A stretch of 64,000 bases of DNA from Sulfurivirga caldicuralii (GTDB taxonomy: Bacteria > Pseudomonadota > Gammaproteobacteria > Thiomicrospirales > Thiomicrospiraceae): NCBI RefSeq assembly GCF_900141795.1, contig NZ_FSRE01000001.1, positions 1 through 64,000 on the forward strand. Reading direction: 5' to 3'. Both the position numbers and the translations under genes were made by a program. How positions within the stretch are numbered: position 1 is the first letter of the stretch; every line of letters begins with the position of its first letter. Positions 7,606 through 45,516 of this stretch are shown piece after piece. The notes under the pieces are model-generated. The model ran no database searches and was not told the origin of the DNA. It saw only the letters and a list, made by a program, of their open reading frames with translations.

Positions 7606-8625
7606 ATGCCGAGCAGCAAGAAATGTATAAAAGAACATGGATTTACCTTGATCGAGGCGGTAGTCAGCGTGCTGATTATGGCGCTGCTGGTTAGCGGTTT
7701 GTCGACGCTCTACTCAAAAAAGATTGTGCTTATGAAAAAACAGGAAAACCTGCATCGTTTCCTCTCGATCAAACAGCATATGCTCAACTATCTGGAAGTG
7801 AATGGTGTGCTGCCCTGTCCGGATGTGGATGGAGATGGTCTTCAGGATCGCAAGCAGCAATCCAATGGGATTAGTACATGCAAGAAAAGTTATGGTTATT
7901 TGCCCTATAGAGACCTCGCGTTGGGATTTGCGACTGATCCGTGGAAGAGTCCCTTCGCCTATGCCGTTAACCGACGTGCTACCAAAAAAACGCGGGTAAC
8001 CGACGTATGTGAAACGGCATCGCTGTTTGCCAAACCCGGCGATCCGGTCCATGTTGGTAACGAGTTGGGCAACCAGAACCGCCTGTTGCTTTGTCCTTCT
8101 ACCGGATTCCTGTACTGCGCCCGCAACTCGAATGAAACGCTGAACCCGAGTACCTGCAAGCCTCAGGCTGGTTTGACGGATGACTGTGTCTGTCTGGTCA
8201 AAAATCAAAGTACGGGCGAACTTGAAGTTGCAGAACAGGAAATCAATACGGGCGCGGATTTTAAAAATCTGCTGGAAGGAGCGGGGTTGCAGGTGGGACC
8301 GCCTTATATCAGCTGGTTTACTCCGCCAGTCGGCTACAACGATAACCCTTCGGCAACCCCTTATAAAAACCTGAAAGTGCTTGATGAATCAGGTGAGCAG
8401 ATTGGAGGTGCGGTTGTGGCCATGATTGCATCCTATGGGGTTAATGGTCAGTACACATGGAATGAAAATTGTCCTGCTGACTTGAGTGATTTTGAACAGG
8501 AAAACTGTGATCACGATGAAACATTCCAGATCGATTATGAAAAAATGGAAGAGTCTGGTGATCGGTTGATATGGATCGATGTTTTTACGGCAAAAGCGGC
8601 ACTGGTGCGGGGAGGGAAGCTATGA
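7606..8625 (+). CDS. Prepilin-type (type IV pilin/pseudopilin-like) protein
   Basis: The 339-residue product begins with a short basic leader and the prepilin peptidase site HGFTLIEAVV, followed by a hydrophobic helix. The ectodomain has LPCPDVDGDGLQDR, a Cys-Pro pair next to an Asp-rich, possibly calcium-binding loop, and several more cysteines. The ATG at 7606 was chosen because it leaves a normal leader; the same frame is open further upstream, with weaker GTG (7576) and TTG (7588) starts. The last bases overlap the next prepilin gene (ATGA). The shared PCPDVDGDG region shows that the two are paralogues. No assembly ATPase, platform protein or peptidase is in the window, so a general type II/IV machinery must act on it. 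Confidence 0.85.
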   Translation: MPSSKKCIKEHGFTLIEAVVSVLIMALLVSGLSTLYSKKIVLMKKQENLHRFLSIKQHMLNYLEVNGVLPCPDVDGDGLQDRKQQSNGISTCKKSYGYLPYRDLALGFATDPWKSPFAYAVNRRATKKTRVTDVCETASLFAKPGDPVHVGNELGNQNRLLLCPSTGFLYCARNSNETLNPSTCKPQAGLTDDCVCLVKNQSTGELEVAEQEINTGADFKNLLEGAGLQVGPPYISWFTPPVGYNDNPSATPYKNLKVLDESGEQIGGAVVAMIASYGVNGQYTWNENCPADLSDFEQENCDHDETFQIDYEKMEESGDRLIWIDVFTAKAALVRGGKL

Positions 8626-19395: not shown

Positions 19396-20622
19396 GTGAA
19401 ACGGCTGCTGTTGTGGACCCTGCTTTTTCTGCTCATTACCGGCGCCACCACGCTGGCGCTGTACGACAATGGTCGCCTGTCGCTGGTTTGGGGCGACTAT
19501 GTGATCGAAACCTCCGGCACGCTGGCGCTGGTACTGGTGGGTGTGCTGGTTCTGCTGGCCTATGGGCTGTTTCGCCTGCTGGGCTGGCTGTGGCGCCTGC
19601 CGCGCACCCTGCGCGAGCGACGCCAGTACAAGCGCCTGCTGCGTGCCGAAGCGGGCATGGGCAAGGGCCTGCTGGCCGGAGAGCATGGCGACTGGCGCAG
19701 TGCCGAACGCGCCCTGATCAAGGCGGCCAAGCTGGCTGAAAACGGCGTGATGTATTACCTGGCGGCGGCGCGCATGGCCCACAATCAGGGGGCGAAGGAG
19801 CGCCGCGACCGCTACCTGAAAGAGGCGCGGGAAAAGTATCCCGACGATTTCGTCACCATCGCATTGGTCGAGGCCCGACTGCTGGCGGAGGAGGCGCCGC
19901 ACAAGGCGCTGGCGCTGCTAGAAAGCCTGGTGGAAGACGGGCAGGCCACAGCAGCCGTCTGGGCCGAGTATGCTCAGCTGCTGGCGCGACTGGAGCGCTG
20001 GACTCGCCTGCGCGAGATTCTGCCCCAGGTGAAACGTAGCAGGGCGTTGCCGGCGGACGTGCTCGAAGGGCTGGAACGGCGCATGTGGCGCCATCTGCTG
20101 ACCGAGGCCGACAGCGCTGAAGCCCTGAATGCCCTGTGGCACCTGCTGGAACGCCGCTGGCGTCAGGACCCGGAGATACTGGCGGCCTACGTGGCGCGTC
20201 AGCTGACTTTTGGCGAAACCCCTCAGTTGGCCAGCCTGATTGAAAAGGCGCTCAAAAAGCATTGGGATCCGCGCCTGGTGTATCTGTATGGGCAGTTGCG
20301 CGAAGGGCCGGCGTTCGACCGCTTGCAGCGGGCGGAAAAATGGCTGCGCCACCATGGGGATGATCCGGTGCTGCTGGCTACGCTGGGTCGGCTGGCGTGT
20401 CAGGCGCAGTTGTGGGGCCAGGCACAGGATTATCTGCGCCGTGCACTGGCATTGCGACCGGAGCTGGATACCTTCCGTGCGCTGGCGCAGTGCCTGGAGG
20501 CCGCCGGCGAAGCCGATCAGGCGGCGCTGGTGTACAAGGATGCACTGGCGGCGCTGGAAAACCGCACCGATCCACTGGCACTGCCGGTCCCGGATAACAA
20601 GGGCAACACGCACAGCTTATGA
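19396..20622 (+). CDS. hemY: HemY, membrane TPR protein of heme biogenesis
   Basis: The 408-residue protein has two N-terminal membrane helices (about 1-20 and 40-65), the conserved HemY N-terminal domain (LSLVWGDYVIETS), then TPR-like helices to the C terminus. HemY of enterobacteria is an inner-membrane TPR protein needed for normal heme synthesis. It begins with GTG directly after the hemX stop and overlaps the nuclease gene by four bases. Confidence 0.92.
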   Translation: MKRLLLWTLLFLLITGATTLALYDNGRLSLVWGDYVIETSGTLALVLVGVLVLLAYGLFRLLGWLWRLPRTLRERRQYKRLLRAEAGMGKGLLAGEHGDWRSAERALIKAAKLAENGVMYYLAAARMAHNQGAKERRDRYLKEAREKYPDDFVTIALVEARLLAEEAPHKALALLESLVEDGQATAAVWAEYAQLLARLERWTRLREILPQVKRSRALPADVLEGLERRMWRHLLTEADSAEALNALWHLLERRWRQDPEILAAYVARQLTFGETPQLASLIEKALKKHWDPRLVYLYGQLREGPAFDRLQRAEKWLRHHGDDPVLLATLGRLACQAQLWGQAQDYLRRALALRPELDTFRALAQCLEAAGEADQAALVYKDALAALENRTDPLALPVPDNKGNTHSL

Positions 20623-21518
20623 GACGGCGCGGCAACACACGGGCGCAGCGTCGGCTGCTGCGCGGCCTGGTGGGCTGGTTGCTGGGTTCGCGTCGGCGCA
20701 TGCTGGGCGCCCTGCTGCTGGCCACGGTTGGCGGCAGTGGTTGGTATGCTCACGAAGTGTATGTGGCCCGCCCGCAGATGGCATGGATGGGGGTGCCGCA
20801 GGAAACGCGCCGCGATCTTTCTCATCTCACCGCCCACGTGCTGCGCAATCCGGGTTTCATGCTCAGCTATTCAGAGTGGAAGGGATCGCCCCTGTGGGTG
20901 ACCTACAAACTGTTCCGCCCGGAAAAACCTCACCCTGTCGGCAAGCGGCCGCCGTTTCGGCCCGACTGGCGTACACTGCGCCATGTGACCTCCGACGACT
21001 ATACCGGCAGCGGCTATGACCGCGGCCATATGGCACCCAACTATGCCATCGCGCTGCTGTACGGGCGTCGTGCGCAGGAAGCCACCTTTCTGATGAGCAA
21101 TATCGCACCGCAGTGTCACCGTCTCAATTCCAAGTGGTGGCAGCGGCTGGAGTCAGCCGCCATCGATCATTTTACCCGCCATTTCAGGGAAATCTGGGTG
21201 GTGACCGGACCGGTATGGGATGAAAAGCCCCGCTATCTGAAGCGGGCATGGATCGATATTCCGGATGCGTTCTACAAGATTTTTGTTGGCATCGATATTG
21301 CTGGACGCCCGCACGCGCTGGCGTTTATGGTGCCGCAGACGGTGCGGGGATTCGAACCGTTGAGCAAGTATCTCACCACCATTGATGCCATCGAGGCGCG
21401 CACTGGACTGGATTTTTTCTGGCGGCTTCCGGATGCGCAGGAGGCGCGGCTGGAGCGAGAGGCGGCTACGGGCGCCTTTCACTTGCGTGCTGTGGATCGC
21501 CTGCCGTCGCGGTATTGA
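20619..21518 (+). CDS. DNA/RNA non-specific endonuclease, membrane-anchored or secreted
   Basis: The 299-residue protein has an arginine-rich start and one membrane helix (MLGALLLATVGGSGWYAHEV), then a NUC-family nuclease domain. The catalytic motif DRGHMAPNYA is intact, and SNIAPQCHRLNSKWW supplies the metal-binding Asn. Family members cut DNA and RNA with magnesium outside the cytoplasm. The gene overlaps hemY (ATGA) and ends the hem operon. The link to heme is not obvious; nutrient scavenging from extracellular DNA is one possibility. Confidence 0.9.
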   Translation: MRRRGNTRAQRRLLRGLVGWLLGSRRRMLGALLLATVGGSGWYAHEVYVARPQMAWMGVPQETRRDLSHLTAHVLRNPGFMLSYSEWKGSPLWVTYKLFRPEKPHPVGKRPPFRPDWRTLRHVTSDDYTGSGYDRGHMAPNYAIALLYGRRAQEATFLMSNIAPQCHRLNSKWWQRLESAAIDHFTRHFREIWVVTGPVWDEKPRYLKRAWIDIPDAFYKIFVGIDIAGRPHALAFMVPQTVRGFEPLSKYLTTIDAIEARTGLDFFWRLPDAQEARLEREAATGAFHLRAVDRLPSRY

Positions 21519-22180: not shown

Positions 22181-23659
22181 TCAAGTATTGCGTTGTTCAC
22201 CGCTTTCTGCGACCAGCGTGCTGTCGTTATTGGAGGGGGGTATTTCGGCTGTTGGCTGAGTTATCGTTTCCTGTGATCCAGAAGGGGCAGCAAACTGATC
22301 ATTGAGCCCCTGAATCAGACGCTTGCTGTCGGCACGCAGCTGGGCCAGCAGTTTCTGCGTGCGGCGGCTCCAGCCACGGGGGTTATCGCTGAATAGGGGC
22401 TGCCACCAGCGGTTGTTGTGGCCAATGGCGCGGGCCACCATTTCATCCTTGGGCTGCCAGGCATCGGCGATGCGTCGTGCCCAGAAGCCGCGCAGCTTGA
22501 AGTGGATGAACACGATGGCCACAAAGGCTGCGACGGCGGTGGCAATGCCCAGTGTGGGCGATGCGGCCAGATAGCTGAGTGTCGGCACGATAAAGTGGAA
22601 CTGGATTTCGCCTGCCACAATCAGCGCGCCGAGCAGGGCACCCAACCCGATCCAGCTCCACACCACGCGCTTGCGCCACTGCGCCAGTGCCTCGCGGATT
22701 TTCGCCAGCTTGTCCTGTTCGATTTCGTCGGCGGCATGCTCGATCATCTTTACGATGCGGTAGGCGCGTTCGTTGCTCACCTTTTCCATGCGCTCAAGAA
22801 TGCGCTTGAGGTCTTCGTCCTTCTTGCGCTTGAAGCGCTCCGCCAGCGCCGGATCGTCGATGGACACGGCAGCGTCTTCGTTGTAGATGGTGTAAAAGTT
22901 GCCGCCATACAGGCCCTTCTGCGACAGGGCGCGCTGCCAGGATCCGATCACTTCTTCAGGGTTGTCTTCCTTTGCGGTGGTGTCGATCTGGTTGAGAATA
23001 TAGAGGAACTTGTTGGCATCGTTGCGCGCGATGGTGGCGCCCACCAGGTGTTCCAGCGTGTCGCGCATGGCGCCCGGTTCCGGATGGCGGGCGTCGAAGA
23101 AGATCAGCACCAGATCAGACATGTCAATAATGTGATCGGTGATGCGCAGCACGGCATCACGCTGGCTGTCGGCATCGAATCCCGGGCTGTCGATGAGGAT
23201 TTTGCCCTTGAGTCGGTCGGCCTTGACCGTTTTCAGCTGCAGATAGCTGTCCACGCGCTTGCCTTCGCCGGCTTCCACCTCGTCGATCTTTTCGCTGATG
23301 TTGTAGAACGGAAAGCGGGGGTCGGCATCCAGCGCCAGCCCGGGCAGGGTAATGACCTCTTCATTGGGCCCATAGCAGATGACGGTGAACTTTTCGTCCA
23401 CCGCCTGGTTGCCGGTGTCCTGCACCTTCTTGCCCACGTAGCTGTTGATGAAGGAGGACTTGCCGGCGGAGAAGGTGCCCAGCAGGGAGATGAGCGGCCA
23501 CCATGAAATGTGCGCGGCGTAGGAGTCGCTGCGCGGCAGCAGTCCCATGTTCCAGGCGATCTTGTCCAGCAGCTGGTAGCGTTCGATGGCGTCCAGCAGC
23601 AACGGGTTTTCTTCCTGCAGGTGTTCCGTGAGCTTGGCGTAGCGTTCCTGTGGCGTCAT
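22181..23659 (-). CDS. Dynamin-family membrane GTPase
   Basis: The 492-residue protein has a large GTPase domain with P-loop GTFSAGKSS (61-69), switch motif DSPGFD (157-162) and NQID (223-226) as the guanine-specificity motif. A helical stretch follows, then two membrane helices (about 329-390) and a Gln/Ser/Thr-rich tail. Bacterial dynamin-like proteins remodel or protect membranes. It is the last gene of a minus-strand set with ParA-like, TPR-like and coiled-coil proteins, 14 bp after the coiled-coil gene. Confidence 0.85.
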   Translation of the reverse strand: MTPQERYAKLTEHLQEENPLLLDAIERYQLLDKIAWNMGLLPRSDSYAAHISWWPLISLLGTFSAGKSSFINSYVGKKVQDTGNQAVDEKFTVICYGPNEEVITLPGLALDADPRFPFYNISEKIDEVEAGEGKRVDSYLQLKTVKADRLKGKILIDSPGFDADSQRDAVLRITDHIIDMSDLVLIFFDARHPEPGAMRDTLEHLVGATIARNDANKFLYILNQIDTTAKEDNPEEVIGSWQRALSQKGLYGGNFYTIYNEDAAVSIDDPALAERFKRKKDEDLKRILERMEKVSNERAYRIVKMIEHAADEIEQDKLAKIREALAQWRKRVVWSWIGLGALLGALIVAGEIQFHFIVPTLSYLAASPTLGIATAVAAFVAIVFIHFKLRGFWARRIADAWQPKDEMVARAIGHNNRWWQPLFSDNPRGWSRRTQKLLAQLRADSKRLIQGLNDQFAAPSGSQETITQPTAEIPPSNNDSTLVAESGEQRNT

Positions 23660-23673
23660 GGCTTATTTCCTCT

Positions 23674-24417
23674 CTATTGGACAGGGTGGCGGTCGGTCTG
23701 GCCCTGCTGGGCGTCATCCTGCTGCTGGCGGGCTGCGTTGGAGGAGGGCGCCTGTTGCTGGGCCGTGTCGTCGCGCATCTGCTGCTGTTGCTGCGGATAG
23801 TAGTACTGCGGCCCGTAGTAGGGAGTGCGCGGGTGGGCAGGGCGGCGCACCGGCGGTGGGTTATAGACGCGCTTGCTGCTCTTCTTGGGCATCATGCCAA
23901 AGGGCATCATGGAGTTGAGCGAGTTCATGGGTTCGGAAATGTTGGCGTCCAGTTCCCACAGGCTGCGCGCCATGGTGTCGGCGGCAGTCTGGATGGTGGC
24001 GATGCGCTGATCCAGCTGCGTCATGGTGGCGTTCATGCTGGCAAACTGATTGTGCAGGCTGGGCATGACGTCGCTGATAACGGCGGTGTCCTTGTTGATG
24101 TTTTCGATGGTGAGGCGCATGCGGTCCATGGTGAGGTTGATGGCGGACATCTGCGCATCCACCTTGCCCATGTTCACATTGAGCGTATTGGTCATGGTGA
24201 CCACGGCGCGGGTCATGGTCAGCATGTTGTCGGAGATTTTCTTGACGTCATTGGCCAGCTGGTAGATGAGGATAAAGCCATAAATGGCCAGCACAATGAA
24301 GGCGATCATCATGGGGTAGAGCACCTTTTCCCACTTCTTGATGCCGCCGGTCATGGCTTCGGCCATTTTTTCGACGGCGGCGAAGGTGCGTTCCTGTTGT
24401 TCGGTCTGTGTTGTCAT
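23674..24417 (-). CDS. Membrane-anchored coiled-coil protein, Gln-rich tail
   Basis: The 247-residue protein has one membrane helix (about 34-54, YPMMIAFIVLAIYGFILIYQ), then a long heptad-patterned coiled coil rich in Met, Thr and Asn (about 60-170), and a Pro/Tyr/Gln-rich tail. I know no enzymatic domain of this shape. It looks structural and could oligomerise in the periplasm next to the GTPase encoded directly downstream. Family unknown. Confidence 0.75.
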   Translation of the reverse strand: MTTQTEQQERTFAAVEKMAEAMTGGIKKWEKVLYPMMIAFIVLAIYGFILIYQLANDVKKISDNMLTMTRAVVTMTNTLNVNMGKVDAQMSAINLTMDRMRLTIENINKDTAVISDVMPSLHNQFASMNATMTQLDQRIATIQTAADTMARSLWELDANISEPMNSLNSMMPFGMMPKKSSKRVYNPPPVRRPAHPRTPYYGPQYYYPQQQQQMRDDTAQQQAPSSNAARQQQDDAQQGQTDRHPVQ

Positions 24418-24516
24418 GGTGGGTTTAATCCTATGTTGCGGGACTTTCAGTCCTTCGCTATATTCTGATATTTGTCTCCAGGGTCAGGCGCCTGGGTGTT
24501 GACACCTGCTAAAACC

Positions 24517-25698
24517 CTACTGGGCGGTGGCCGCATCCGCTCTGCTGGGCATGTCGGCCTTGCGTGTGGGCAGATGCGCTTCGATCTCACGGCTCAGTGC
24601 CGGATCCACCTTGGCGATATTGCGGGCAAAGGTGCGTGCAATGTCGATGCGGCCTTCGCGAATCAGCAGTTGCGCCGCATAGCGCCAGGCACGGTGCGCC
24701 CACTGCTTTTCGCCCATGCGCCAGAGCACATTGCCCAGCTCGCCCGCCAGATCAGCGCGCGGGTAATGCTTCAGCAGACTGCTGTAGATGGCCGCACTCC
24801 AGACATAATCGCCCTTTTGCGCCGCTTCACGGGCGGCTGCCAGCGCTTCGCGGGGGGCGCTGAAATAGCTCAGGATGGCGCGATCATTGATCTGGCGGGG
24901 GTCAAAGCGGCCTTGAGCCGCTGTGTCGTCAGCCAGTTGGGACGGCGGCTGACTAACCTGTACATGCACCTCGCTGTGGCGCTGGCCGTCGCTTTTTGTG
25001 GTGGCCGTCTGCACACGCACTTCGGTGGCGCCATCGTTTAGCTGTGTAGCGGTTTCGTGAGCCGTGGCGGCAGGAGTGTCGCTCGTCGTGTCTGTCGTGT
25101 CGGCGGATGCGGGTGTGTTTTCAGGTTCGGCTTCGCCACTGGCTGTGTCGGCCGTATCCGTTTGGCTACCATTGGGTTCACCCTGTGGTGCATTTTCCTC
25201 TGCATCGGACTGAACAGCAGCAGTCGCTGCAGCCTGGCCTGTCTCCTCTGTAGCCTGCTCCGCAGTCGTTTCGAGCGTTTCCGCGCCAGGGGCGACACTG
25301 TCTGTTTCTGCTTCCGCTACCGCTTCGGAAGCAGGTGTCTCAGAGTGGACGGCATGATCGGTCTGTGCTGACTCGGCAGCGGTCGCTGCGGGTGCAGCCG
25401 TTTCAGATTCAGGCGCTGCGGGCGCTGCAGGAGCGGGGGCACCGGGAACGTCGTCCGCTGCTGCTGAAGTTTTCCCCTCGGCGGCGGCTTCGGAGGCGGT
25501 GTCCGCTGCAGGTGCCTGCGAGGCGTCTTCACTGGATGAGGTATTCGCCGCCATGTCGGCGGTTTCGATGTGGGGGCTGACATAGGCCTTGTTTTGTGCC
25601 GCCTGCTTCTGCCCATACGCGAGATAGAGGGTGACGGCGATCAGCAGCGCCAGTACGAAAAAGCCGTTGTTGAGCAGGGTTTTCAGCAGTTTTTTCAT
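24517..25698 (-). CDS. Membrane protein with Ala/Glu/Thr-rich linker and TPR-like C terminus
   Basis: The 393-residue protein has a short basic start and one membrane helix (about 10-29), then roughly 200 residues of low-complexity Ala/Glu/Thr/Ser, then a C-terminal helical domain from about residue 265 (ISYFSAPREAL; DYVWSAAIYSSLLKHYPRA; WAHRAWRYAAQLLIREG) that looks like TPR repeats. The low-complexity part would span the periplasm or form a flexible linker. The ATG is one base from the parA-like stop, so coupled translation is likely. Family unknown. Confidence 0.75.
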   Translation of the reverse strand: MKKLLKTLLNNGFFVLALLIAVTLYLAYGQKQAAQNKAYVSPHIETADMAANTSSSEDASQAPAADTASEAAAEGKTSAAADDVPGAPAPAAPAAPESETAAPAATAAESAQTDHAVHSETPASEAVAEAETDSVAPGAETLETTAEQATEETGQAAATAAVQSDAEENAPQGEPNGSQTDTADTASGEAEPENTPASADTTDTTSDTPAATAHETATQLNDGATEVRVQTATTKSDGQRHSEVHVQVSQPPSQLADDTAAQGRFDPRQINDRAILSYFSAPREALAAAREAAQKGDYVWSAAIYSSLLKHYPRADLAGELGNVLWRMGEKQWAHRAWRYAAQLLIREGRIDIARTFARNIAKVDPALSREIEAHLPTRKADMPSRADAATAQ

Positions 25699-25699
25699 C

Positions 25700-26326
25700 T
25701 CAAGCCTCCTGAGCGTAGAGTTGGCGTGCCAGACGTTTCAGTTCCAGCGCCGCCTTGCCGTTGGGTTCCAGTTCGAACGCCGCCAGACCTTCGCTGAAGG
25801 CGCGGCGGAAGGCGGCGCGGTTGTGCAACACCACGGGCACCCGTTCAATGTGGGGCAATAGATCCAGTGCTTCCTGCGTCTCTCGGGTTTCTGGTACGAA
25901 AGGATGCGTGTCAGCCCGGTTGATTACGCCAAGGATCGGAGGCAGGTTATCGCCGCGCAATTTTTTGATGCGGCGGATAAAGCGCTGCGTGGACCAGACA
26001 TCGGCCTGAGAAGGCGCCACCGGCACCACCACGCGATCGGCCATGAGCAGGGCCTGATCCAGCGCGTCTTGATCGCTCATGCTCACGTCCATGAGCACTT
26101 CGTCCGCCTGCAGCGGTGATTCCAGCGTATCCGCATGCAGGGCGGCGGGCAGTGCGGGCGTATAGCCTTCCTCTTCGCGCACCTCGATGGCGTCGGTAAA
26201 GGTTTTCTGCGGATCCAGATCGAATAGTGCCAGTTCACACCCCTTGTGGGCAAGCCACACGGCCAGATTGAACGTGAGCGTGCTCTTGCCGGTACCGCCT
26301 TTCATGTTACCGATAACTGTGATCAT
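25700..26326 (-). CDS. ParA/MinD-family ATPase
   Basis: The 208-residue protein carries the deviant Walker A motif KGGTGKST (9-16), LALFDLDPQKT as the switch region and VVPVAPSQADVWSTQ downstream. The short form without an N-terminal DNA-binding domain is typical of ATPases that position membrane or cytoplasmic cargo (MinD, ParC, McdA-like) rather than plasmids. No ParB is nearby. The cargo may be the membrane proteins encoded next to it (inference). Confidence 0.9.
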   Translation of the reverse strand: MITVIGNMKGGTGKSTLTFNLAVWLAHKGCELALFDLDPQKTFTDAIEVREEEGYTPALPAALHADTLESPLQADEVLMDVSMSDQDALDQALLMADRVVVPVAPSQADVWSTQRFIRRIKKLRGDNLPPILGVINRADTHPFVPETRETQEALDLLPHIERVPVVLHNRAAFRRAFSEGLAAFELEPNGKAALELKRLARQLYAQEA

Positions 26327-26373: not shown

Positions 26374-26397
26374 CCATCCGCCCCGGGGGACGGATGG
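26374..26397 (-). terminator. Probable terminator or hairpin after the sulfur-globule-like gene
   Basis: CCATCCG (26374-26380) pairs with CGGATGG (26391-26397) around a C/G-rich loop. Read on the minus strand it is followed by CTTTTC, a weak T tract, 33 bp past the stop at 26431. Confidence 0.5.
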
Positions 26398-26430: not shown

Positions 26431-26952
26431 TTACTTCTTTTGCTGTTGCTGCTGTTGTTGCTGCGGCTGACCGCGGCGCTGCGGGGCACCTGGAGGTGCA
26501 GGCGGCATGCCGTAGGGGCGGTAACCCGGAGGCGGCATGGCACCCGGTGCAGGATAGCCGTAGGCCGGCGGTGGCGGCGGCGGATAGCCGTAGCCGTCGT
26601 AGTAGCCATTGTAGTAGTTGTTGTAGCCGCGGCCATAACCATAGTAGTCGTTATAACCACGGCCGCGTCCACGGCCTTCCCAGTCGGTATCGGTATCCAT
26701 GTCGGTATCGGCATCCACACCGAAGTTCATGTTGAACTTGCCTTTGCCGTGGCCCTTGCCGTGACCGCGGCCATGACCACGACCGCGGTAGTCGCCATAA
26801 CCACGGCCATAACCGGTGCCGTAGCCGTCACCATAACCATTGCCGTAGCCGTCATCGTTCCAGGGGCCGTCCCACCAGTTGGCGGAAGCGCCCTGTGCGC
26901 CGAAAATGGCGGCGGAAACAAGGCCTGCGAGTGCGAGTTTTTTGATCGTCAT
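26431..26952 (-). CDS. Gly/Tyr-rich secreted protein, sulfur-globule-protein-like
   Basis: The 173-residue product has a clear signal peptide cleaved near ASA/NWW. The mature part opens with NWWDGPWNDDGYG and continues with GYG, GRGHG and NNYY repeats, a central KFNMNFGVDAD segment, and a Pro/Gln-rich end with eight Gln. Signal peptide plus NWWxGPW plus Gly/Tyr/Asn repeats plus FNMNF resemble envelope proteins of sulfur globules in sulfur-oxidising Gammaproteobacteria. The call rests on composition and motifs, not on a catalytic signature; another structural surface protein is possible. Confidence 0.6.
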   Translation of the reverse strand: MTIKKLALAGLVSAAIFGAQGASANWWDGPWNDDGYGNGYGDGYGTGYGRGYGDYRGRGHGRGHGKGHGKGKFNMNFGVDADTDMDTDTDWEGRGRGRGYNDYYGYGRGYNNYYNGYYDGYGYPPPPPPAYGYPAPGAMPPPGYRPYGMPPAPPGAPQRRGQPQQQQQQQQKK

Positions 26953-27075: not shown

Positions 27076-27543
27076 CTACCATCCAAATGGATTCGATGGT
27101 ATGGAAAAACTCGGTGTGCTGAAACTTGGGCTCGGCATGCTCCAGTTGTTCATGTTCGGCCAGCTGCCATTTCCCGGCCACCAGCTGTTGTTTCGGTGTC
27201 GCGGCGCATACCCATAGCCGTAGCCATACGCCGGCGGGGCATAGCCGCGTGGTGCGTAGCCATAGGCCGGATAGCCCCCATAACCGCCGTATGCGGGCGC
27301 GGCATAAGGTGTGGGGGCGGGTACTGCCGGAGACTGTGGCTGCGCCTGCTGCTGCGGTGCCACGGGCTGTGGCAGGTTGTTGGCCGGGGTGGTGTCGAGC
27401 CACTGCGCCCGCGGCTGGGTGGAGTTGTAGGCTTCTTCCGGCTGGGGCCAGGCTTCGCCGGCAGCGTGAGCCGAACTCCAGACCAGCAGCAGGGCGGCGA
27501 GGAGGGGGGTCCCCGACTTTTTAAAAAGCGCGGTTTTATTCAT
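27076..27543 (-). CDS. Pro/Gly/Tyr-rich secreted protein, possibly sulfur-globule related
   Basis: The 155-residue product has a signal peptide (hydrophobic LLAALLLVWSSAHA), an N-terminal WPQPEEAYNSTQPRAQW segment, a Pro/Ala/Gln-rich stretch, GYGGYPAYGYAPRGY repeats and a Ser/Pro/Phe/Trp-rich end. Codons 8-13 (Lys-Lys-Ser-Gly-Thr-Pro), the basic part of the signal peptide, come from copy 2 of the 18-bp interspersed element read antisense. The ATG overlaps the end of the RND permease gene by 8 bases. Function is unknown; composition and the neighbouring Gly/Tyr-rich gene suggest a structural envelope or globule protein. Confidence 0.65.
   Translation of the reverse strand: MNKTALFKKSGTPLLAALLLVWSSAHAAGEAWPQPEEAYNSTQPRAQWLDTTPANNLPQPVAPQQQAQPQSPAVPAPTPYAAPAYGGYGGYPAYGYAPRGYAPPAYGYGYGYAPRHRNNSWWPGNGSWPNMNNWSMPSPSFSTPSFSIPSNPFGW
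27505..27522 (+). repeat. 18-bp interspersed element, copy 2 (in a signal peptide)
   Basis: Exact core GGGGGTCCCCGACTTTTT on the plus strand. It is antisense to the secreted-protein gene, where it encodes Lys-Lys-Ser-Gly-Thr-Pro at residues 8-13. Confidence 0.97.
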
Positions 27544-30500
27544 CGTCCAGATCCTTCAGTTTGATGCCCCGTTTGTGCCCTTTACGGGATTTTTTGGGCG
27601 TTTTTGCTTCCGATTGCGGCTTTTGCGTGTTGTTTTCCGCTGTTTCAGGTTTTTCGGGCGCTGTGGCCGGTTTCGACGCGCCTTCAGCAGCCGCCGTATC
27701 GACCTCGGTGGTGGAAGAAGGTGTTGCCCCGCTTTCATCTGATGCGCCGGCTTTGGCCTGTGTCACATCAGTGGGGGCAACGGGCGAGGGTTTAACCTCC
27801 TCTGGTTCGGTGTGAGGCTGGGCCTGGCCCGCCTCGGGATGTTCTCGGGTCGGCACGGCGCACTGGGCCTGCAGGTTCAGGTCTTCATCTTCCACCTTGG
27901 GACAAAAGGCGTTGCGTGCGCTGACGCAGCCCAGCGGGATGACCACGAGGGTCAGAATGGTGGAGACCAGCGTGCCGAACATGAGCGAGATGGCCATGCC
28001 CTGGAAGATGGGGTCGAACAGAATGACGCTGGAACCGAGCACCAGTGCCAGTGCGGTAATGAGAATGGGGCGGGTGCGCGTCTTGCACGCCAGCACCACG
28101 GCGTCTACCACCGGCACACCGCTGTTGATGGCCTGCCGGGAGAAGTCCACCAGCAGGATGGAGTTGCGCACGATAATCCCCGCCAGGGCGATAAAGCCGA
28201 TCATGGAGGTGGCGGTAAACTCGGCGCCCAGCAGCCAGTGGCCCGGGGCGATGCCGATCAGTGTGAGCGGAATGGGCGCCATGACGATCAGCGGCACGAG
28301 GAAGTTCTTGAATTCCCATACCACCAGCATGTAGATCACCAGCAGGGCGACGCCGAAGGCCAGCCCCATGTCGCGGAAGGTTTCGTAGGTGACGGTCCAT
28401 TCACCACTCCACAGCACGCCTTTCTCCCGCAGAGCATCTGGCGTGAAGACGTAGTTGAACTGCAGATCCTTCAGCTTCGGCACCTGATTGGCCAGCTCCT
28501 GAATCTGCAGCATGCCGTAGATGGGCGCGCCAAGGCGTCCCACGCCGGTGCCGGTGACATACTGCACCGGTGTGAGGTCCTTGTGATAGATGACCGGCTG
28601 CTGCATTTCCATCACGAAGCGGCCCAGTTCAGCCAGCGGCACGGTATAGCCGTGTTCGGAGGGCACCGGGATCTGGCCGATGCGGGCAAACTGGGCGCGC
28701 TCTTCCAGCGGCACCTGCAGGGTGATGTAGGTGGGCTCGCGCACGAAACCTTCCTTGACGTCGCCCACCTTGAACTCACCCATGGCCATTTTGACGGTCT
28801 GGTTGATGGTTTGCACGCTGATGCCCTTTTCCATGGCCTTCTGCTTGTCGATGACGAAGCGCCAGGTGGCATGGGGCATGGTGAGCATGTTGTCCACGTC
28901 GGAAACCAGCGGTGCGGCCTCAAACACATTCGTCAGCAGCTTGGTGATCTGCTCGCGCTGTTTGTCGCCCGGCGCATAGACTTCAGCCACGATGGGCTGC
29001 AGCACCGGCGGACCCGGCGGCATTTCCACTACATGCAGGGTGGCGCCGACCGCCTTGGCGATGGGCTGCAGCTGCTCGCGCACCGCCTCGGCGATTTCGT
29101 GGCTGCTGCGTTCGCGTTCATGCTTGTCCACCAGATGGACCTGTATGTCACCCTGCCAGGGGTTCTGGCGCAGGTAGTAGTGACGCACCAGCCCATTGAA
29201 GTCGAAGGGCGCGGCGGTGCCGGCGTAGGATTCCAGGGTCTTGACTTCGGGCACCTTCTGCAGCTCGGTCACCAGACGGTGGGCCAGGTTGGCGGTGACG
29301 GGCAGGGCGGTGCCTTCCGGGAAGTCGAACACCACGCTGAAGTCCGGCTTGTTGTCGTAGGGCAGCAGCTTGACCGGCACGGCCTTGGTGGCTACCAGCA
29401 TGATGGCGATGACAAAGCCTGCGATGATCGCCAGCAGAAAGCCCCAGCCCTTCATCTTGTCGATGAGCAGGCTGGTGAGCAGGACGCGGAAGAAGCTTTC
29501 GATCTTCTCGCTCTGGCGGTGTTCGCGCTCTTCCGCCTTTGCCAGCTGCTGCATCGTGGGGCGGATACGCTGTGCCAGCCAGGGGGTAAAGGCAAAGGCG
29601 GCAAACAGGGAGATGACCATGGCGACGGAGCCCAGGGCCGGGATGGGTGCCATGTAGGGGCCCATCATGCCGGAGACGAAGCCCATGGGGGCCAGGGCGG
29701 CGATCACCGTCAGCGTGGCGATGATGGTGGGGTTGCCCACCTCGGACACCGCATCGATGGTGGTGCGCACGCTGACGCGGCCTTCTTCCAGCCAGCGCCG
29801 GTAGATGTTTTCCAGTACCACCACGGCATCGTCCACCAGAATACCAATGGAGAAGATGAGGGCGAACAGGGAGACGCGGTCGATGGTGAAGCCGCCCAGC
29901 CACGCGGCGAAGACGGTGGAAAGGATGACCGCGGGAATGACAATCACGGTGACCACGGCGGCGCGCCAGCCGAGGAAGAACCACACCAGTGCGGTGACGG
30001 AGCCGGTGGCGATGAACAGCTTGAAGATCAGTTCGTTCACCTTGTCATTGGCGGTCTTGCCGTAGTTGCGGCTGACGGTGACGTGCACATCATCGGGGAT
30101 GAGAATGCCGCGCAGGCTCTCTAGTTTCTGGATGGCTGCTTCCGCGACGGTAACACCATTGGAAAGGGGTTTTTTTGCAATGGCGATGGTCACGGCCGGT
30201 TCGCCGTCCGGGGCCTTCAGATTCCCTTCGTAGGCCGGGCCGGTATAGCGCAGCACGATATTGGAAATGTCGCTGTGGCCCAGGGACACCTTGGCAATGT
30301 CGCGCACATACACCGGCTTGTTGTTGACCACGCCGACCACGAGGTTTTTCACGTCCTCTACGCTCTTGAGGAAGTCGCCGGTATAGACGCGGAAGGTGCG
30401 CTGAAAGGCTTCCACTTCGCCCGCCTGCAGCTCGGAGTTGGCGGCGCGGATGACGCGACCGATCTGGCTCAGCGGGATGCCATAGCCGGACAGTCTTTCC

Positions 30501-31102
30501 GGATCCACATCGATGCGGATTTCCCGCGGCTCACCACCGACGATAAAGCCCTGCGCCGAGTCGGGCACCTTGGACAGCTCCTGCAGCACATCCAGTGCCA
30601 GCAGGCGCAGCTGCGACTGATCCAGAACCGAAGAGGAGAGCGTGAAGGTCACCACCGGCACATCGTCGGCGCCCTTGGGCTTGACCAGTGGCATTTCCAC
30701 GCCCGGGGGGATCTTGTCCATGTTGGAGGCCAGCTTGTTATACAGCTTGACCAGGGATTTCTCCATGTCTTCGCCCACTTCGTATTCCACCGTCACCATG
30801 CCCTGACCGCGGGCGGAGGCGGAATAGACGTGCTTGACGCCCTTGATTTCGTGCAGGAGCCGCTCCAGCGGCTCGGCCACCAGCGCCTCCACCTGCTTGT
30901 TGGAGGCCCCGGGATAGCTGACAAAAATGTCCGCCATGGGCACGGAAATCTGCGGGTCTTCCTGCCGCGGCGTGATGATCACGCCGATAATGCCGACCAC
31001 CAGAAACGCCATCAGGAACAGCGGCGTTAGCGGCGAATTGATATAGCTGCGCGCGAAGCTGCCGGCAATGTCTTTCGTTTTGGGTTCCATGGGTTCAGAC
31101 AC
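27536..31102 (-). CDS. RND-family efflux permease with low-complexity C-terminal tail
   Basis: The 1188-residue protein has the AcrB/MexB-type layout: 12 membrane helices with two large periplasmic loops. PRQEDPQISVPMADIFVSYP follows helix 1 and SIGILVDDAVVVLENIYR is the helix-4 proton-relay region with its Asp pair. After helix 12 comes a tail of about 130 residues rich in Pro, Glu, Ala and Thr, ending in a basic KKSRKGHKRG stretch. The GTG at 31102 was chosen for GAGGA eight bases upstream; TTG at 31132 and ATG at 31090 are alternatives. It forms a unit with the adaptor upstream. The substrate is unknown. Confidence 0.93.
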   Translation of the reverse strand: MSEPMEPKTKDIAGSFARSYINSPLTPLFLMAFLVVGIIGVIITPRQEDPQISVPMADIFVSYPGASNKQVEALVAEPLERLLHEIKGVKHVYSASARGQGMVTVEYEVGEDMEKSLVKLYNKLASNMDKIPPGVEMPLVKPKGADDVPVVTFTLSSSVLDQSQLRLLALDVLQELSKVPDSAQGFIVGGEPREIRIDVDPERLSGYGIPLSQIGRVIRAANSELQAGEVEAFQRTFRVYTGDFLKSVEDVKNLVVGVVNNKPVYVRDIAKVSLGHSDISNIVLRYTGPAYEGNLKAPDGEPAVTIAIAKKPLSNGVTVAEAAIQKLESLRGILIPDDVHVTVSRNYGKTANDKVNELIFKLFIATGSVTALVWFFLGWRAAVVTVIVIPAVILSTVFAAWLGGFTIDRVSLFALIFSIGILVDDAVVVLENIYRRWLEEGRVSVRTTIDAVSEVGNPTIIATLTVIAALAPMGFVSGMMGPYMAPIPALGSVAMVISLFAAFAFTPWLAQRIRPTMQQLAKAEEREHRQSEKIESFFRVLLTSLLIDKMKGWGFLLAIIAGFVIAIMLVATKAVPVKLLPYDNKPDFSVVFDFPEGTALPVTANLAHRLVTELQKVPEVKTLESYAGTAAPFDFNGLVRHYYLRQNPWQGDIQVHLVDKHERERSSHEIAEAVREQLQPIAKAVGATLHVVEMPPGPPVLQPIVAEVYAPGDKQREQITKLLTNVFEAAPLVSDVDNMLTMPHATWRFVIDKQKAMEKGISVQTINQTVKMAMGEFKVGDVKEGFVREPTYITLQVPLEERAQFARIGQIPVPSEHGYTVPLAELGRFVMEMQQPVIYHKDLTPVQYVTGTGVGRLGAPIYGMLQIQELANQVPKLKDLQFNYVFTPDALREKGVLWSGEWTVTYETFRDMGLAFGVALLVIYMLVVWEFKNFLVPLIVMAPIPLTLIGIAPGHWLLGAEFTATSMIGFIALAGIIVRNSILLVDFSRQAINSGVPVVDAVVLACKTRTRPILITALALVLGSSVILFDPIFQGMAISLMFGTLVSTILTLVVIPLGCVSARNAFCPKVEDEDLNLQAQCAVPTREHPEAGQAQPHTEPEEVKPSPVAPTDVTQAKAGASDESGATPSSTTEVDTAAAEGASKPATAPEKPETAENNTQKPQSEAKTPKKSRKGHKRGIKLKDLDDE

Positions 31103-31128
31103 GGTTGTGTTCCTCAGCCTTCGCGTAA

Positions 31129-32319
31129 TCAATCGTCATCGTGTTCGTCTTGGTTGTCATCGCCTTCCGCCGGCTGCGGTTCCAGCAGCTGGCCATCGCG
31201 ATACACCATGCCGGAGTGGATATTGGGTGGCGGATCGAGAATGACCTTCTCGCCGGCGCGCAGACCCGACAGCACCAGATGGTAGCCGTTCTTACCCTGC
31301 TGGCTCAGGCGCACGATCTTCATGTGGACCTCACCGGTTTTGGGATCCACCACATACACGGCGGGCAGGCTGCCACGCCTGACGATGGCGCTTTCCGGCA
31401 CTACCGGGAACTTGAGGTTGTTGCTCTGCGGGTTGGGCAGATAGACCTCGGCATACATGCCCGGTGCGGCGCGCGCACCGAGGGGAATGTCAAACTTCAC
31501 CTTCACCGTGTGCTGCTTGTCGTCCGCCACCGGGAAGATCTGCGCCACGCGCACATTGATGGGGGTGCCGTGGTTGATGCTGGCCTGGAAGATGCGCCCC
31601 TTTTCGATGGCGCCCATCAGGCTGACGGGGACGTTCACCTCAATGGAGAGATGGTTGCTCTTGGCAAAGTCCATGATGGGCTGGCCGGGCTGCACGGTAT
31701 CGCCCACTTCCACGAACTTCTTCACGATCACACCGTCGAAGGGTGCCAGTAGCTTGGTGTAGCGCAGCAGCACGTCGATTTCCTCGATCTGGGCGCGTGC
31801 CGCCTCCATCTGCGCCAGCGCCTCCTTGATGCGGTTGCGTGCCGCGATCAGATCGGCTCGGCGCGCGGCGTCGTAGTCGGTAATGTCCATCGCCTCGCTC
31901 ATGGGGCGAGAGAACATCTGGTCGAACATGCTGGGCAGCCCCATACCGGGCATTGGCGTCTTGGACTGGGGCGCCCACAGCTCGCGGTTATACATGGTGA
32001 TGGCGTTCTGATAGGCGGCTGCAGCACGCTGCCATTGGGCGTAGGCGGCCTTGCGCTTGGCCAGCAGCGCGGAATCGTCGATGGACGCCAGCAGGGTGCC
32101 CTTCTTGAAGCGATCACCTTCCTCGCCAGCGAGGTAGTTGATCTGACCGGCGCTCTGTGCCGTGAGCGTCACCTTTTTAAAGGGGATGACTGTGCCGCCT
32201 AGTTTCACGTAGCTGTCGTAAACCTGTGCCTTGACCTCGGCGACTGCCACCTTGGCCCAGCCCGGCAGGGAAAAGGTGGCCAGCGCGGCGGCGAAAAGAA
32301 GGCCCTTTATGCGTTGCAT
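31129..32319 (-). CDS. HlyD/MexA-type periplasmic adaptor of an RND pump
   Basis: The 396-residue protein has a signal peptide (LLFAAALATFSLPGWA), a lipoyl half-motif (AQSAGQINYLAGEEGDRFKKG), an alpha-hairpin (about residues 85-185), a second lipoyl half (TKLLAPFDGVIVKKFVEVG) and beta-barrel and membrane-proximal domains. A Glu/Asp-rich end (EGDDNQDEHDDD) may bind metal. CAGGAG precedes the ATG. Its stop is 26 bp before the permease GTG. No outer-membrane channel gene is nearby. Confidence 0.92.
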   Translation of the reverse strand: MQRIKGLLFAAALATFSLPGWAKVAVAEVKAQVYDSYVKLGGTVIPFKKVTLTAQSAGQINYLAGEEGDRFKKGTLLASIDDSALLAKRKAAYAQWQRAAAAYQNAITMYNRELWAPQSKTPMPGMGLPSMFDQMFSRPMSEAMDITDYDAARRADLIAARNRIKEALAQMEAARAQIEEIDVLLRYTKLLAPFDGVIVKKFVEVGDTVQPGQPIMDFAKSNHLSIEVNVPVSLMGAIEKGRIFQASINHGTPINVRVAQIFPVADDKQHTVKVKFDIPLGARAAPGMYAEVYLPNPQSNNLKFPVVPESAIVRRGSLPAVYVVDPKTGEVHMKIVRLSQQGKNGYHLVLSGLRAGEKVILDPPPNIHSGMVYRDGQLLEPQPAEGDDNQDEHDDD

Positions 32320-32628: not shown

Positions 32629-32658
32629 AAAAAAAAAAAGCGGCCATAAGAGCCGCTT
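32629..32658 (-). terminator. Terminator after the radical SAM gene
   Basis: AAGCGGC (32638-32644) pairs with GCCGCTT (32652-32658) with a seven-base loop. Read on the minus strand a run of about ten T follows. It lies 48 bp past the radical SAM stop at 32706. Confidence 0.9.
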
Positions 32659-32705: not shown

Positions 32706-33803
32706 TCAGGCGTGCAGACGGATGGGCAGGCGCCGGCTGCCCCAGTCCCCCGGCTGCTCCTCGAACACGCCGGCGATTTCAGCGCCGCAGTGGGCGCAGC
32801 AGCAGCCATCTTTGAGTTGCCACAGGGTGATGTCGTAGCCGACGCGGCCGATGACCGGCTGCTTGCACTGCGGGCAGTAGGTGGTCTGCCCGGCAGGATC
32901 GAGCACATTGCCGGTATAGACATAATTGAGCCCGTGTTCCATGGCAATTTTGCGTGCTTCCTCCAGCTTGTGCGGCGGCGTGGGCGGCACATCCAGCATG
33001 CGGAAGTCCGGATGGAACGCGGTAAAGTGCAGCGGCGTATCCGGCCCGCAGTGGTCGATGATCCACTGGCTCATCTTTTCCAGCTCTTCCGGGCTGTCGT
33101 TGTGCCCCGGAATCAGCAGCGTGGTGAGCTCGACCCAGCAATCGGTCTCCTTCACCGCGTATTCAATGGTATCCAGCACCGGCTGCAGATGGCCGCCGGT
33201 GAGCTTGCGGTAGAAGTCCTCGCTGAAGCCCTTCAGGTCGATATTGGCCGCATCCATGTGCTTGAAGAATTCCTGCCGCGGCTCCGGGTTGATGTAACCG
33301 GCCGTCACCGCCACATTCTTGATGCCCTTTTCGCGACACGCCCTGGCGGTATCGATGGCGTATTCAAAGAAGATGACCGGGTCATTGTAGGTATAGGCTA
33401 CGGCGCGGCAGCCGGTACGCAGCGCGGCATCGGCCAGGTCTTGGGGCATGGCTTCGTCCATGAGGCGATCCATGTCGCGCGCCTTGGACATGTCCCAGTT
33501 CTGGCAGTATTTGCACGCCAGATTGCAGCCGGCAGTGCCGAACGAGAGCACCGGCGTGCCCGGCAGAAAGTGGTTGAGTGGTTTTTTCTCGATGGGGTCG
33601 ATCACAAAGCCGCTGGAGCGGCCATAGCTGGTGAGCCACAGCTGGTCATCCTGGCGCATGCGGATAAAGCAGAAGCCGCGTTGTCCCTCGTGCAGCTTGC
33701 ATTCGCGCGGGCACAGATCACACTGGATCAGATCCCCCTCCCAGTGCCAGTAGCCCACGGGAATGACGTGCGGGTCGTTGGTATCAATGCGTTCCTTGGT
33801 CAT
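32706..33803 (-). CDS. amrS: AmmeMemoRadiSam system radical SAM enzyme
   Basis: The 365-residue protein resembles pyruvate formate-lyase activating enzymes. An early Cys-rich part (IQCDLCPRECKLHEGQRGFC) precedes the iron-sulfur motif CNLACKYC, and a further Cys set near the C terminus (YCPQCKQ, CCCAHCGAE) may hold a second metal site. The family occurs with MEMO1-like and AMMECR1-like proteins, which are encoded just across a 304-bp gap on the other strand. The reaction of this trio is not established. Symbol used only for the system name. Confidence 0.9.
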   Translation of the reverse strand: MTKERIDTNDPHVIPVGYWHWEGDLIQCDLCPRECKLHEGQRGFCFIRMRQDDQLWLTSYGRSSGFVIDPIEKKPLNHFLPGTPVLSFGTAGCNLACKYCQNWDMSKARDMDRLMDEAMPQDLADAALRTGCRAVAYTYNDPVIFFEYAIDTARACREKGIKNVAVTAGYINPEPRQEFFKHMDAANIDLKGFSEDFYRKLTGGHLQPVLDTIEYAVKETDCWVELTTLLIPGHNDSPEELEKMSQWIIDHCGPDTPLHFTAFHPDFRMLDVPPTPPHKLEEARKIAMEHGLNYVYTGNVLDPAGQTTYCPQCKQPVIGRVGYDITLWQLKDGCCCAHCGAEIAGVFEEQPGDWGSRRLPIRLHA

Positions 33804-33865
33804 GGGTCCCCCTTTTGAAATGGCTTGTCAAATAACCGGCAGCGGCATCCTCTCACCTGTCTCGC

Positions 33866-34030
33866 CCCGTTCAACCTGTTTGCACGCTCATGGTTTTGGC
33901 GTCAAGTTGCTGTAAAGCTTGCAGTGGGCGCGGCAGAACTGGCTGCGCTCAAACAGCTGCCACGCTGGCCCCTCTGCTGACGCCAACAATTGGCACCGCC
34001 ACAAATCGCCGTGCAGACAGGTTGAACGGG
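33866..34030. repeat. 165-bp imperfect palindrome with nested arms, MITE-like
   Basis: CCCGTTCAACCTGTTTGCACG (33866-33886) is repeated inverted at 34010-34030 with one mismatch in 21. Inside it TTGGCGTCA (33896-33904) faces TGACGCCAA (33978-33986), and GCGCGGCAG (33928-33936) faces CTGCCACGC (33957-33965). The arms share a common centre near 33945. The structure fills most of the gap between the radical SAM gene and the MEMO1 gene. It could be a small mobile-element relic or a cruciform regulatory element. Confidence 0.8.
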
Positions 34031-34107
34031 CTGCTCATGATGCCCCTCTTGGAAATCACGCATTCATCTATATATAGTCAATATTCCATAAAACAAGGAG
34101 GGGAGTT

Positions 34108-34920
34108 ATGGAAGGATTACGTATCAGACCGCCCGCGGTGGCCGGCATGTTCTATCCCGCTGATGCGGCCGAGCTTGATGTCATGCTGGAGCAGTGGCTC
34201 AGTGAGCGCCCGCCGGTGCCGCGGGAAGATCCGCCACGCGCGCTGATCGTGCCCCATGCCGGGTATGTCTATTCCGGCGAGGCGGCGGCACGCGCCTTCA
34301 GCCTGTGGAAGGGTGCCGACCAGATCGAAACGGTAGTGGTTGTGGGGCCGGCGCACCGCGTGCCCTTCTACGGCATCGCCACGGTCAGTGCTGATGCCCT
34401 GGCTACCCCGCTGGGCACGGTGCCGGTGGACACCGCGTTGCGCGACGAGCTGGTGCAGCGCTTCGACTTCGTCGGCTATCTGGATGAGGCGCATGCGCCC
34501 GAACACAGTCTGGAAGTGGAGCTGCCCTTTATTCAGAAAACCGTGCCGCAGGCGAAGGTGGTGCCGCTGCTCAACGGGCAGATCAGCGCCGAAGAGGAGG
34601 GGGCGCTGTTCGAGTATCTGTGGAACAAGCCGGGCGTCTATTTTGTGATCAGCTCGGATCTGAGCCATTACCACCCTTATGAAGAGGCTTGTCTCATCGA
34701 CGCGCAGACGGCGCATCTGATTGAAAGCGGCCGCTGGGACCAGCTGACGGGCGAACGCGCCTGCGGCTTCAAGGGCATCCAGGGGTTGCTGCAGGTGGCC
34801 GAGCGCCATCCGCTGGAGATGGCGCGGCTGGCGCTGGTGAACTCCGGCGATACTGCGGGGCCAAAAGATCAGGTGGTGGGCTACGGTGCCTGGGCCATCT
34901 GGGACGCAACAACGCAGTAA
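34108..34920 (+). CDS. amrB: AmmeMemoRadiSam system protein B (MEMO1 family)
   Basis: The 270-residue protein matches the MEMO1 family, related in fold to class III extradiol dioxygenases. RPPAVAGMFYPADAAELD, APHRVPFYG-like and VPHAGYVYSG segments with conserved histidines, HSLEVELPFIQ and SSDLSHYHPYEEA are visible. GGAGGGGAG before the ATG is a very strong ribosome site. It is followed after 27 bp by the AMMECR1 gene. Confidence 0.92.
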   Translation: MEGLRIRPPAVAGMFYPADAAELDVMLEQWLSERPPVPREDPPRALIVPHAGYVYSGEAAARAFSLWKGADQIETVVVVGPAHRVPFYGIATVSADALATPLGTVPVDTALRDELVQRFDFVGYLDEAHAPEHSLEVELPFIQKTVPQAKVVPLLNGQISAEEEGALFEYLWNKPGVYFVISSDLSHYHPYEEACLIDAQTAHLIESGRWDQLTGERACGFKGIQGLLQVAERHPLEMARLALVNSGDTAGPKDQVVGYGAWAIWDATTQ

Positions 34921-41529: not shown

Positions 41530-41879
41530 TACAGATCCTCCTCTACCTGCTCGATAATTGCCCGCGCCTGTTGCTCGATGCCGATAATGTCTTCCACGTC
41601 CATCTGCATGACGATGCCGCGGCCGGCCTTGTCACAGAATTCGCCAGCCCTGGCGATGGTTTCCAGAATGGTGCGTGCCAGGTGAGCTTCCACTACGAAC
41701 AGCACGACATCCCGTTGGGCTTCCAGTTGCAGGCCGAAGAAGGTTTTCGCTGTCTGCAGGCCCTCTCCGGTGGCCGATTTGATGGTGGTGGCGCCGGTGG
41801 CGCCGGCCTCGCGTGCCGCATCGATAATGCGGGCGGTCACCGTGTCGTCCACGATGGCGATAAGCAGTTTGAATTTCAT
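41529..41879 (-). CDS. PII-like signal protein
   Basis: The 116-residue protein has the ferredoxin-like alternation seen in PII family members: [54 protein letters not shown] and a C-terminal QMDVEDIIGIEQQA. It lacks the canonical uridylylated Tyr of GlnB, so it is a PII-like regulator of the neighbouring membrane proteins rather than the nitrogen sensor itself (inference). It overlaps both neighbours. Confidence 0.8.
   Translation of the reverse strand: MKFKLLIAIVDDTVTARIIDAAREAGATGATTIKSATGEGLQTAKTFFGLQLEAQRDVVLFVVEAHLARTILETIARAGEFCDKAGRGIVMQMDVEDIIGIEQQARAIIEQVEEDL

Positions 41880-42661: not shown

Positions 42662-45516
<2,855 letters not shown>

Follow-up and report, generated by a model that had tools for sequence, protein, structure and literature searches.

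The DNA analysed here is a stretch of 64,000 nucleotides from Sulfurivirga caldicuralii (contig NZ_FSRE01000001.1, positions 1 to 64,000, assembly GCF_900141795.1), which we refer to as the window. The system in question is an operon of eight genes on its minus strand, running from 32319 to 22181 and encoding, in this order, a periplasmic adaptor (MFP), an RND permease, two small secreted-looking proteins (PRO and SGP-like), a ParA-family ATPase, a membrane protein with a TPR-like end (TPR), a membrane coiled-coil protein (CC) and a dynamin-superfamily GTPase. The link between this operon and sulfur oxidation is strong and well supported, and its link to sulfur globules is moderate. The genes and features, with the evidence for each, are as follows (here and below, transmembrane-like segments were called by a hydropathy window).

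31129 to 32319, minus: MFP, RND periplasmic adaptor, first gene of the operon (TIGR01730, RND_mfp, 185.1 bits against a cut-off of 94.9; syntenic in relatives)
27536 to 31132, minus: RND permease from a distinct family, 1198 residues, long C-terminal tail, TTG start according to the open reading frame tool (ACR_tran, 494.7 bits, above the cut-off)
27076 to 27543, minus: PRO, secreted-looking, Pro/Ala/Gly/Tyr-rich (composition; homologues follow the RND gene in relatives)
26431 to 26952, minus: SGP-like, secreted-looking, Gly/Tyr/Pro-rich, with 22.5% G, 12.1% Y and 11% P (PF17228, E 0.001, 20.3 bits)
26374 to 26397, minus: terminator-like hairpin between the SGP-like and ParA genes (pattern match only)
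25700 to 26326, minus: small ParA-family ATPase, 208 residues (CbiA and AAA_31 matches)
24517 to 25698, minus: TPR, with an N-terminal transmembrane segment, an acidic Ala/Thr-rich linker and a TPR-like C-terminal domain (hydropathy, composition, alignment A3)
23674 to 24417, minus: CC, apparently with a short basic-motif N-terminus, one transmembrane segment, a coiled-coil-like stretch and a Pro/Tyr/Gln-rich tail (transmembrane-like at 30-48)
22181 to 23659, minus: dynamin-superfamily GTPase, 492 residues, two transmembrane-like segments (Dynamin_N, 56 bits against a cut-off of 27)
32638 to 32658, minus: terminator-like hairpin 5' of the MFP gene, probably ending the preceding unit (pattern match only)

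A first-pass annotation had described the last four genes as close-set on one strand and forming one operon. All four open reading frames are where it placed them, with gaps of 1 (ParA/TPR), 99 (TPR/CC) and 14 (CC/GTPase) bases, and they do group together, but the proposed unit was too small: the four are the 3' half of an operon of eight or more genes, and we rejected them as a natural unit because the operon starts at the MFP gene (32319). The MFP-RND and RND-PRO gene pairs overlap, the latter by 8 bases. The sulfur-globule-like genes which the same annotation saw alongside are closer still, the SGP-like gene belonging to the operon itself. The GC content (61.2% in the operon, 58.8% in the rest of the window) is uninformative, and a promoter scan gave one match, on the opposite strand, with 3.3 expected.

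Protein families encoded by the operon

Judged from its sequence, the RND permease represents a distinct family. When a class sample of 369 genomes was scored with profile A2 (two candidates per genome only), this family reached 1369-2169 bits, against 1250 or less for other RNDs, and membership was set at 1300 bits or more, a cut-off chosen once the score gap was visible. In a tree of 46 sequences the family is far from two outgroup RNDs, and the NCBIfam drug-pump models RND_permease_1 and RND_permease_2 give 360.5 and 458.9 bits, where 1250 are required. Of the two secreted-looking proteins encoded next, PRO has no Pfam match, and PF17228 is listed at E <= 0.1 for seven of eleven SGP-like proteins and for none of nine shuffled controls; the scores are weak, and the similarity appears to exceed an effect of composition.

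The operons of relatives contain a variable number of secreted-looking Pro/Gly/Tyr/Trp-rich proteins, as well as additional genes: c11 (a LolA-like carrier), c7 (DUF302) and c35, a small gene before MFP. The c11 protein of L074 is modelled with a LolA/RseB-like fold (mean pLDDT 80.7; Z 12.0 for RseB and about 11 for LolA), with VioE and ependymin-like rows tying in the fold search; at the sequence level c11 gives no useful PDB match, and one of the five c11 proteins scanned in Pfam exceeds the DUF4412 cut-off. The one c35 protein scanned matches no Pfam family, and its PDB matches are designed proteins and not sensible; it may have an SCP2-like look. In L109, an ArsR-type regulator precedes the operon.

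The identity of the ATPase as ParA-like holds (CbiA 51.9 bits, AAA_31 52.1 bits), with ParF as the best solved relative in a PDB profile search (E 1.3e-13) and a deviant Walker A motif, including the signature lysine, whose residues K9, G10, G11, G13, K14, S15 and T16 are present in 45 of 45 homologues; with the NCBIfam model ParA_partition (NF041546) it scores 123.4 bits where 180 are required. The TPR protein had been described as a membrane protein with a low-complexity spacer and a TPR-like end. A transmembrane-like segment (4-22) and the linker (residues 50-265, 26% Ala, 14% Thr, 40 D+E against 5 K+R) bear this out, but its TPR matches are below threshold (TPR_2 16.5 bits, cut-off 27; TPR_14 14.7 bits, cut-off 23.5). 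The CC protein, correctly annotated as a membrane protein, has a single transmembrane-like segment, which is strongly conserved among its homologues. Just before it, position 28 is K or R in 40 of 40 homologues and W29 is kept in 35 of 40, with P163 and P172 in all 40. A basic end is common in partners of ParA.

Association with sulfur oxidation

The status of sulfur oxidiser was assigned from marker genes, taking as SoxB-positive the 150 class genomes with E <= 1e-110 (148 of them exceed the cut-off) and as DsrA-positive the 114 with E <= 1e-95 (111 exceed it). The RND family is carried by 73 class genomes from 37 families, and 68 of the 73 have SoxB or DsrA. Of the 103 genomes that possess both markers 55 carry it, compared with 9 of the 47 that have SoxB alone, 4 of the 11 that have DsrA alone and 5 of the 208 that lack both. 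Each of the 37 families has at least one carrier positive for SoxB or DsrA, and 31 have one positive for DsrA. Among the five markerless carriers, G271 (55% complete) contains a fragment of DsrA, G349 has FccB, and G252 has the same genus label as the DsrA-positive G136 and G351. As controls, SoxB was found in 37 of 79 genomes in which the next RND class supplies the best match and in 49 of 217 with neither RND class. Within SoxB-positive genomes, DsrA accompanies the RND family in 55 of 64 cases, against 48 of 86 genomes without it. In a random sample of 40 RND carriers (35 SoxB-positive) and 40 SoxB-positive genomes without the family, DsrA was above the cut-off in 36 and 24, respectively, and the same holds for six of six carriers tested outside the class.

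These data also bear on a different explanation, in which the RND pump is an efflux system against reactive-sulfur or metal-sulfide stress, the secreted proteins are a protective sink, the role of ParA and the genes near it is just to place the pump, and no storage body exists. In Azospira suillum, an RND permease and its MFP are in one operon with SQR, and RND pumps rise under sulfide, which was interpreted there as detoxification (PMC5358917). That operon (Dsui_3440-3443) resembles ours in joining an RND permease and MFP to a sulfide-oxidising enzyme and differs in that four genes are named for it, with no ParA, CC or GTPase among them (PMC5358917). Moreover, MFP-RND pairs stand alone, with no coat genes, in L111, L112, L119, L124, L127 and L128, among others. 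In L123 and L124 a stand-alone pair adjoins genes for flavocytochrome c sulfide dehydrogenase (FccAB), and in L121 it has a cytochrome c gene nearby; in the RND tree, the copies of these three loci branch among those from operons. We nonetheless consider stress efflux distinctly unlikely, as it leaves unexplained why one operon should combine ParA and a LolA-like carrier with several secreted proteins of coat-like character, and since the DsrA link holds inside SoxB-positive genomes, which suggests stored sulfur.

Conservation of the gene order and the GTPase

The four-gene order stressed in the first-pass annotation is well kept within the family and much less so across the class. Among 36 genomes of the family, 12 have the GTPase, and eight of these, the window included, have ParA, TPR, CC and GTPase in order (in G002 the contig ends within the GTPase gene); all eight genes of the operon, arranged as in the window, are also present in L015 (Sulfurivirga sp.), L017 (Thiomicrorhabdus sp. 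ZW0627) and other family genomes. Across the class, the GTPase is present in 88 of 369 genomes. We picked 40 of these loci by hand, as we did 20 RND loci from other classes, so that neither set is random. Just nine of the 40 contain all four genes in order (the TPR score being weak in L088). In 18 loci, these nine included, two or more of ParA, TPR and CC precede the GTPase on its own strand; a further three have ParA and the pump, two are on contigs too short, and in 17 no upstream gene of that strand matches ParA, TPR or CC at more than 17 bits. Among those 17, L096 has only a 17-bit ParA match and L080 has ParA-RND-MFP on the other strand. The order itself varies: L021, a Rhodospirillaceae-labelled contig, reads MFP-RND-PRO-SGP-c11-ParA-TPR-GTPase and then a CC-like gene, which in L101, too, is 3' of the GTPase and not 5'.

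In a phylum sample of 219 genomes, the RND family was found at 1413 bits or more in 37 genomes of other classes. The 20 loci chosen from these include MFP in all cases, c11 in 18 and c35 in 17, and ParA adjoins CC in 11; the GTPase is present in none. Because they are kept in other classes where the GTPase is missing, the pump, the secreted proteins, c11, ParA and CC constitute the more widely shared set, with ParA and a transmembrane CC protein carrying a basic cytoplasmic motif at its core. The GTPase is a patchy partner, belonging to the operon in Gammaproteobacteria as well as two Rhodospirillaceae-labelled contigs (L020 and L021).

The identification of the GTPase itself stands. Its P-loop and DxxG residues (G66, K67, S68, D157, S158, P159 and G160) are invariant across 19 rows, and its transmembrane-like segments are at 331-349 and 364-382. 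Alignment A1 omits L023, a Sulfurovum-labelled contig whose GTPase is split over two open reading frames (L023:10001-11390). According to its AlphaFold model (mean pLDDT 79.9; residues 458-492 at low confidence), the protein has an EHD/dynamin fold: Foldseek lists EHD4 (5.7e-11) and BDLP (1.0e-8), and the best structural match is EHD4 (Z 22.3, root-mean-square deviation 5.4, 352 residues aligned), followed by other EHD proteins, mitofusins and IniA. It therefore shares the predicted dynamin-superfamily fold with these proteins and differs from them in its two transmembrane-like segments and in being encoded with an RND pump; no C-terminal EH domain is among the seven Pfam families listed up to E 1.

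Whether this GTPase is part of the system is less clear than its fold. It could be a general envelope gene, often found by mre genes, and merely a neighbour of the operon. The RND family is absent from 29 of the 88 GTPase-bearing class genomes, and GTPases lacking the pump have no link to DsrA (8/29 against 106/340). Relatives of the GTPase occur in Desulfobacterales-, Sulfurovum- and Campylobacterales-labelled contigs with no other operon genes in the available stretch (for L024, just 352 bases of upstream sequence). Orphan copies often adjoin what we take, from their sequences, to be mre and gat genes, as do some operon copies; in L078, L079, L081, L087, L093 and L097 the neighbours are presumably RNase D-like, mre and, in most, ChaN-like genes, suggesting a separate envelope role for the orphans. 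Within the family, G005, G011 and G028 have the GTPase alone, with the rest of the block absent. The site in G011 has both flanks in common with that of G034, which has the block: a short gene (presumably ComEA-like) on one side and the same pair of genes on the other. G005 shares the second flank, the short gene not being called there. Since these flanks are shared, the rest of the operon was lost, or gained, beside a lasting GTPase. On the other side, 59 of the 73 RND carriers have the GTPase, a co-occurrence far above expectation (Fisher p 9e-33, a value that, like our other Fisher values, is inflated by genome kinship and uncorrected for it); where the best matches for the two genes are on one contig (31 genomes), they are no more than 15 kb apart in 29 (in the other 28 genomes they are on separate contigs), and ParA, TPR or CC is directly upstream of the GTPase in 21 of the 40 class loci. 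We thus regard a role as mere neighbour as rather unlikely. As a marker for the operon the GTPase was rejected, because it occurs where the remaining genes do not.

Several observations on neighbouring genes are also worth recording. In L091, a MlaC-family gene (8581-9183; PF05494, 48.8 bits) immediately follows the GTPase, hinting at lipid transport. In the window, a gene for a DNA/RNA non-specific endonuclease (20619-21518; PF01223, 121.7 bits) is convergent with the operon. Directly before the operon (32706-34920) are what we take to be a radical-SAM-like gene on the minus strand and a MEMO-like gene on the plus strand, and at 41876-43392 there are tandem membrane genes whose products presumably resemble DUF1538 proteins, with look-alikes after the GTPase in L086.

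A candidate machinery for sulfur deposits

Our preferred explanation, to which we assign a probability of about 0.57, is that sulfur-oxidising bacteria use the operon to make and organise deposits of elemental sulfur, which are most likely globules in the periplasm. It builds on the gene order, the protein families, two folds, the spread of the genes, their association with sulfur genes and the conserved motifs, and from these we infer the pump substrate, the coat function, the membrane topology, the ParA-CC contact, the positioning and the membrane remodelling. In this mechanism, oxidation of sulfide or thiosulfate would produce periplasmic sulfane sulfur, and the RND-MFP pump would move a hydrophobic component of the deposit, whether polysulfide, S0 or an accompanying lipid. 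The small secreted Gly/Tyr/Pro-rich proteins may form the coat of the deposit, and the LolA-like carrier, where present, may ferry a hydrophobic ligand. Crossing the inner membrane, the CC protein, and perhaps also TPR, would grip the coat with its periplasmic part, the short basic cytoplasmic end of CC contacting ParA; a ParA gradient on the nucleoid could then space the deposits and partition them when the cell divides. Only in those lineages where it is a partner would the dynamin-like GTPase remodel or tether the inner membrane at the deposit. It is a tentative further step, possible more than probable in our estimation, to propose that the sulfur globule, as a periplasmic storage body, is built, coated, placed and divided by a machine of its own that works from the cytoplasm, with ParA acting via a single-pass basic-motif adaptor and an EHD-like GTPase shaping the membrane in some lineages.

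Parts of this arrangement are known elsewhere. In Allochromatium vinosum, SgpA-D are secreted globule-envelope proteins, SgpD coats the globules and its gene adjoins that of a hydrophobic/amphiphilic exporter (PMC10386293); the available passages on SgpA-D mention no ParA, adaptor or GTPase (PMC10386293), and the SGP-like protein of the window matches PF17228 below the cut-off only. This exporter and the Azospira pump are likened to ours by description, as possible members of its RND family. As in McdA/McdB and other ParA/MinD systems of cargo positioning, a small ParA ATPase is encoded with its likely cargo, the partners being diverse (PMC10241942); the difference is that the putative cargo here would be periplasmic and reached via transmembrane proteins. 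The first-pass annotation suggested that the four genes could together place and reshape a membrane structure, with sulfur globules in view. The SGP-like and secreted genes, the 68 of 73 carriers with SoxB or DsrA and the neighbourhood of sgpD lend this suggestion partial support; the GTPase proved separable from the unit.

A number of observations weigh against this explanation. In A. vinosum, sgpD is dispensable for globule formation and degradation and is apparently its own transcription unit, and deletion of the Azospira SQR-RND operon left the sulfide oxidation rate unchanged (PMC10386293, PMC5358917). The window protein reaches 20.3 bits with PF17228 and its best relative 24.7, where the cut-off is 26.7. 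The block of G034 is devoid of ParA; L110 and L118 have a reduced operon (MFP-RND-secreted-c11-like-TPR-CC) with neither ParA nor GTPase, and six of the 20 other-class loci have no ParA or CC after RND (three more end too early). In the random sample, FccB separates the two groups weakly (28 against 21 of 40) and SoxC, at 4 against 8, was rejected as a distinguishing trait. Because 55 of the 114 DsrA genomes are without the RND family, the pump is not required for Dsr-type oxidation. The window genome itself has SoxB and two FccB matches and no DsrA, and Hydrogenovibrio is presumably a relative. Globules of Hydrogenovibrio are extracellular, being excreted (PMC5733100), and, with a window genome without DsrA, the deposit here may therefore be outside the cell or absent.

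Excretion of this kind would also suit an assembly system for the cell surface or envelope, in which the pump and the low-complexity proteins build an extracellular matrix, a tube or a sulfur-attachment structure that the ParA and GTPase set places, and the variable number of secreted-looking Gly/Tyr/Pro/Trp-rich proteins agrees with it. Such a system seems quite improbable to us, considering that the globules of several species are periplasmic (PMC10386293, PMC6509183) and that none of the few genes scanned between RND and ParA, a small sample, was recognised as encoding an outer-membrane channel.

To our knowledge, no machinery has been described by which sulfur globules are assembled, spaced and passed on to daughter cells. 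No literature was found that pairs 'sulfur globule' with 'ParA' as whole words; pairing it with 'dynamin' returned SUP05 only, dynamin being listed there as an absent protein, and no description of this operon was among the matches listed (titles and abstract openings, with subscription literature mostly not covered). In the main text of a 2025 review on the placement of bacterial organelles, the words 'sulfur' and 'globule' are absent (PMC13052382). The operon constitutes a testable gene set in several classes of the phylum, comprising a pump, candidate coat proteins, a positioning ATPase and a likely adaptor. If our explanation is true, the positioning of cargo by ParA would reach beyond the cytoplasm into another compartment.

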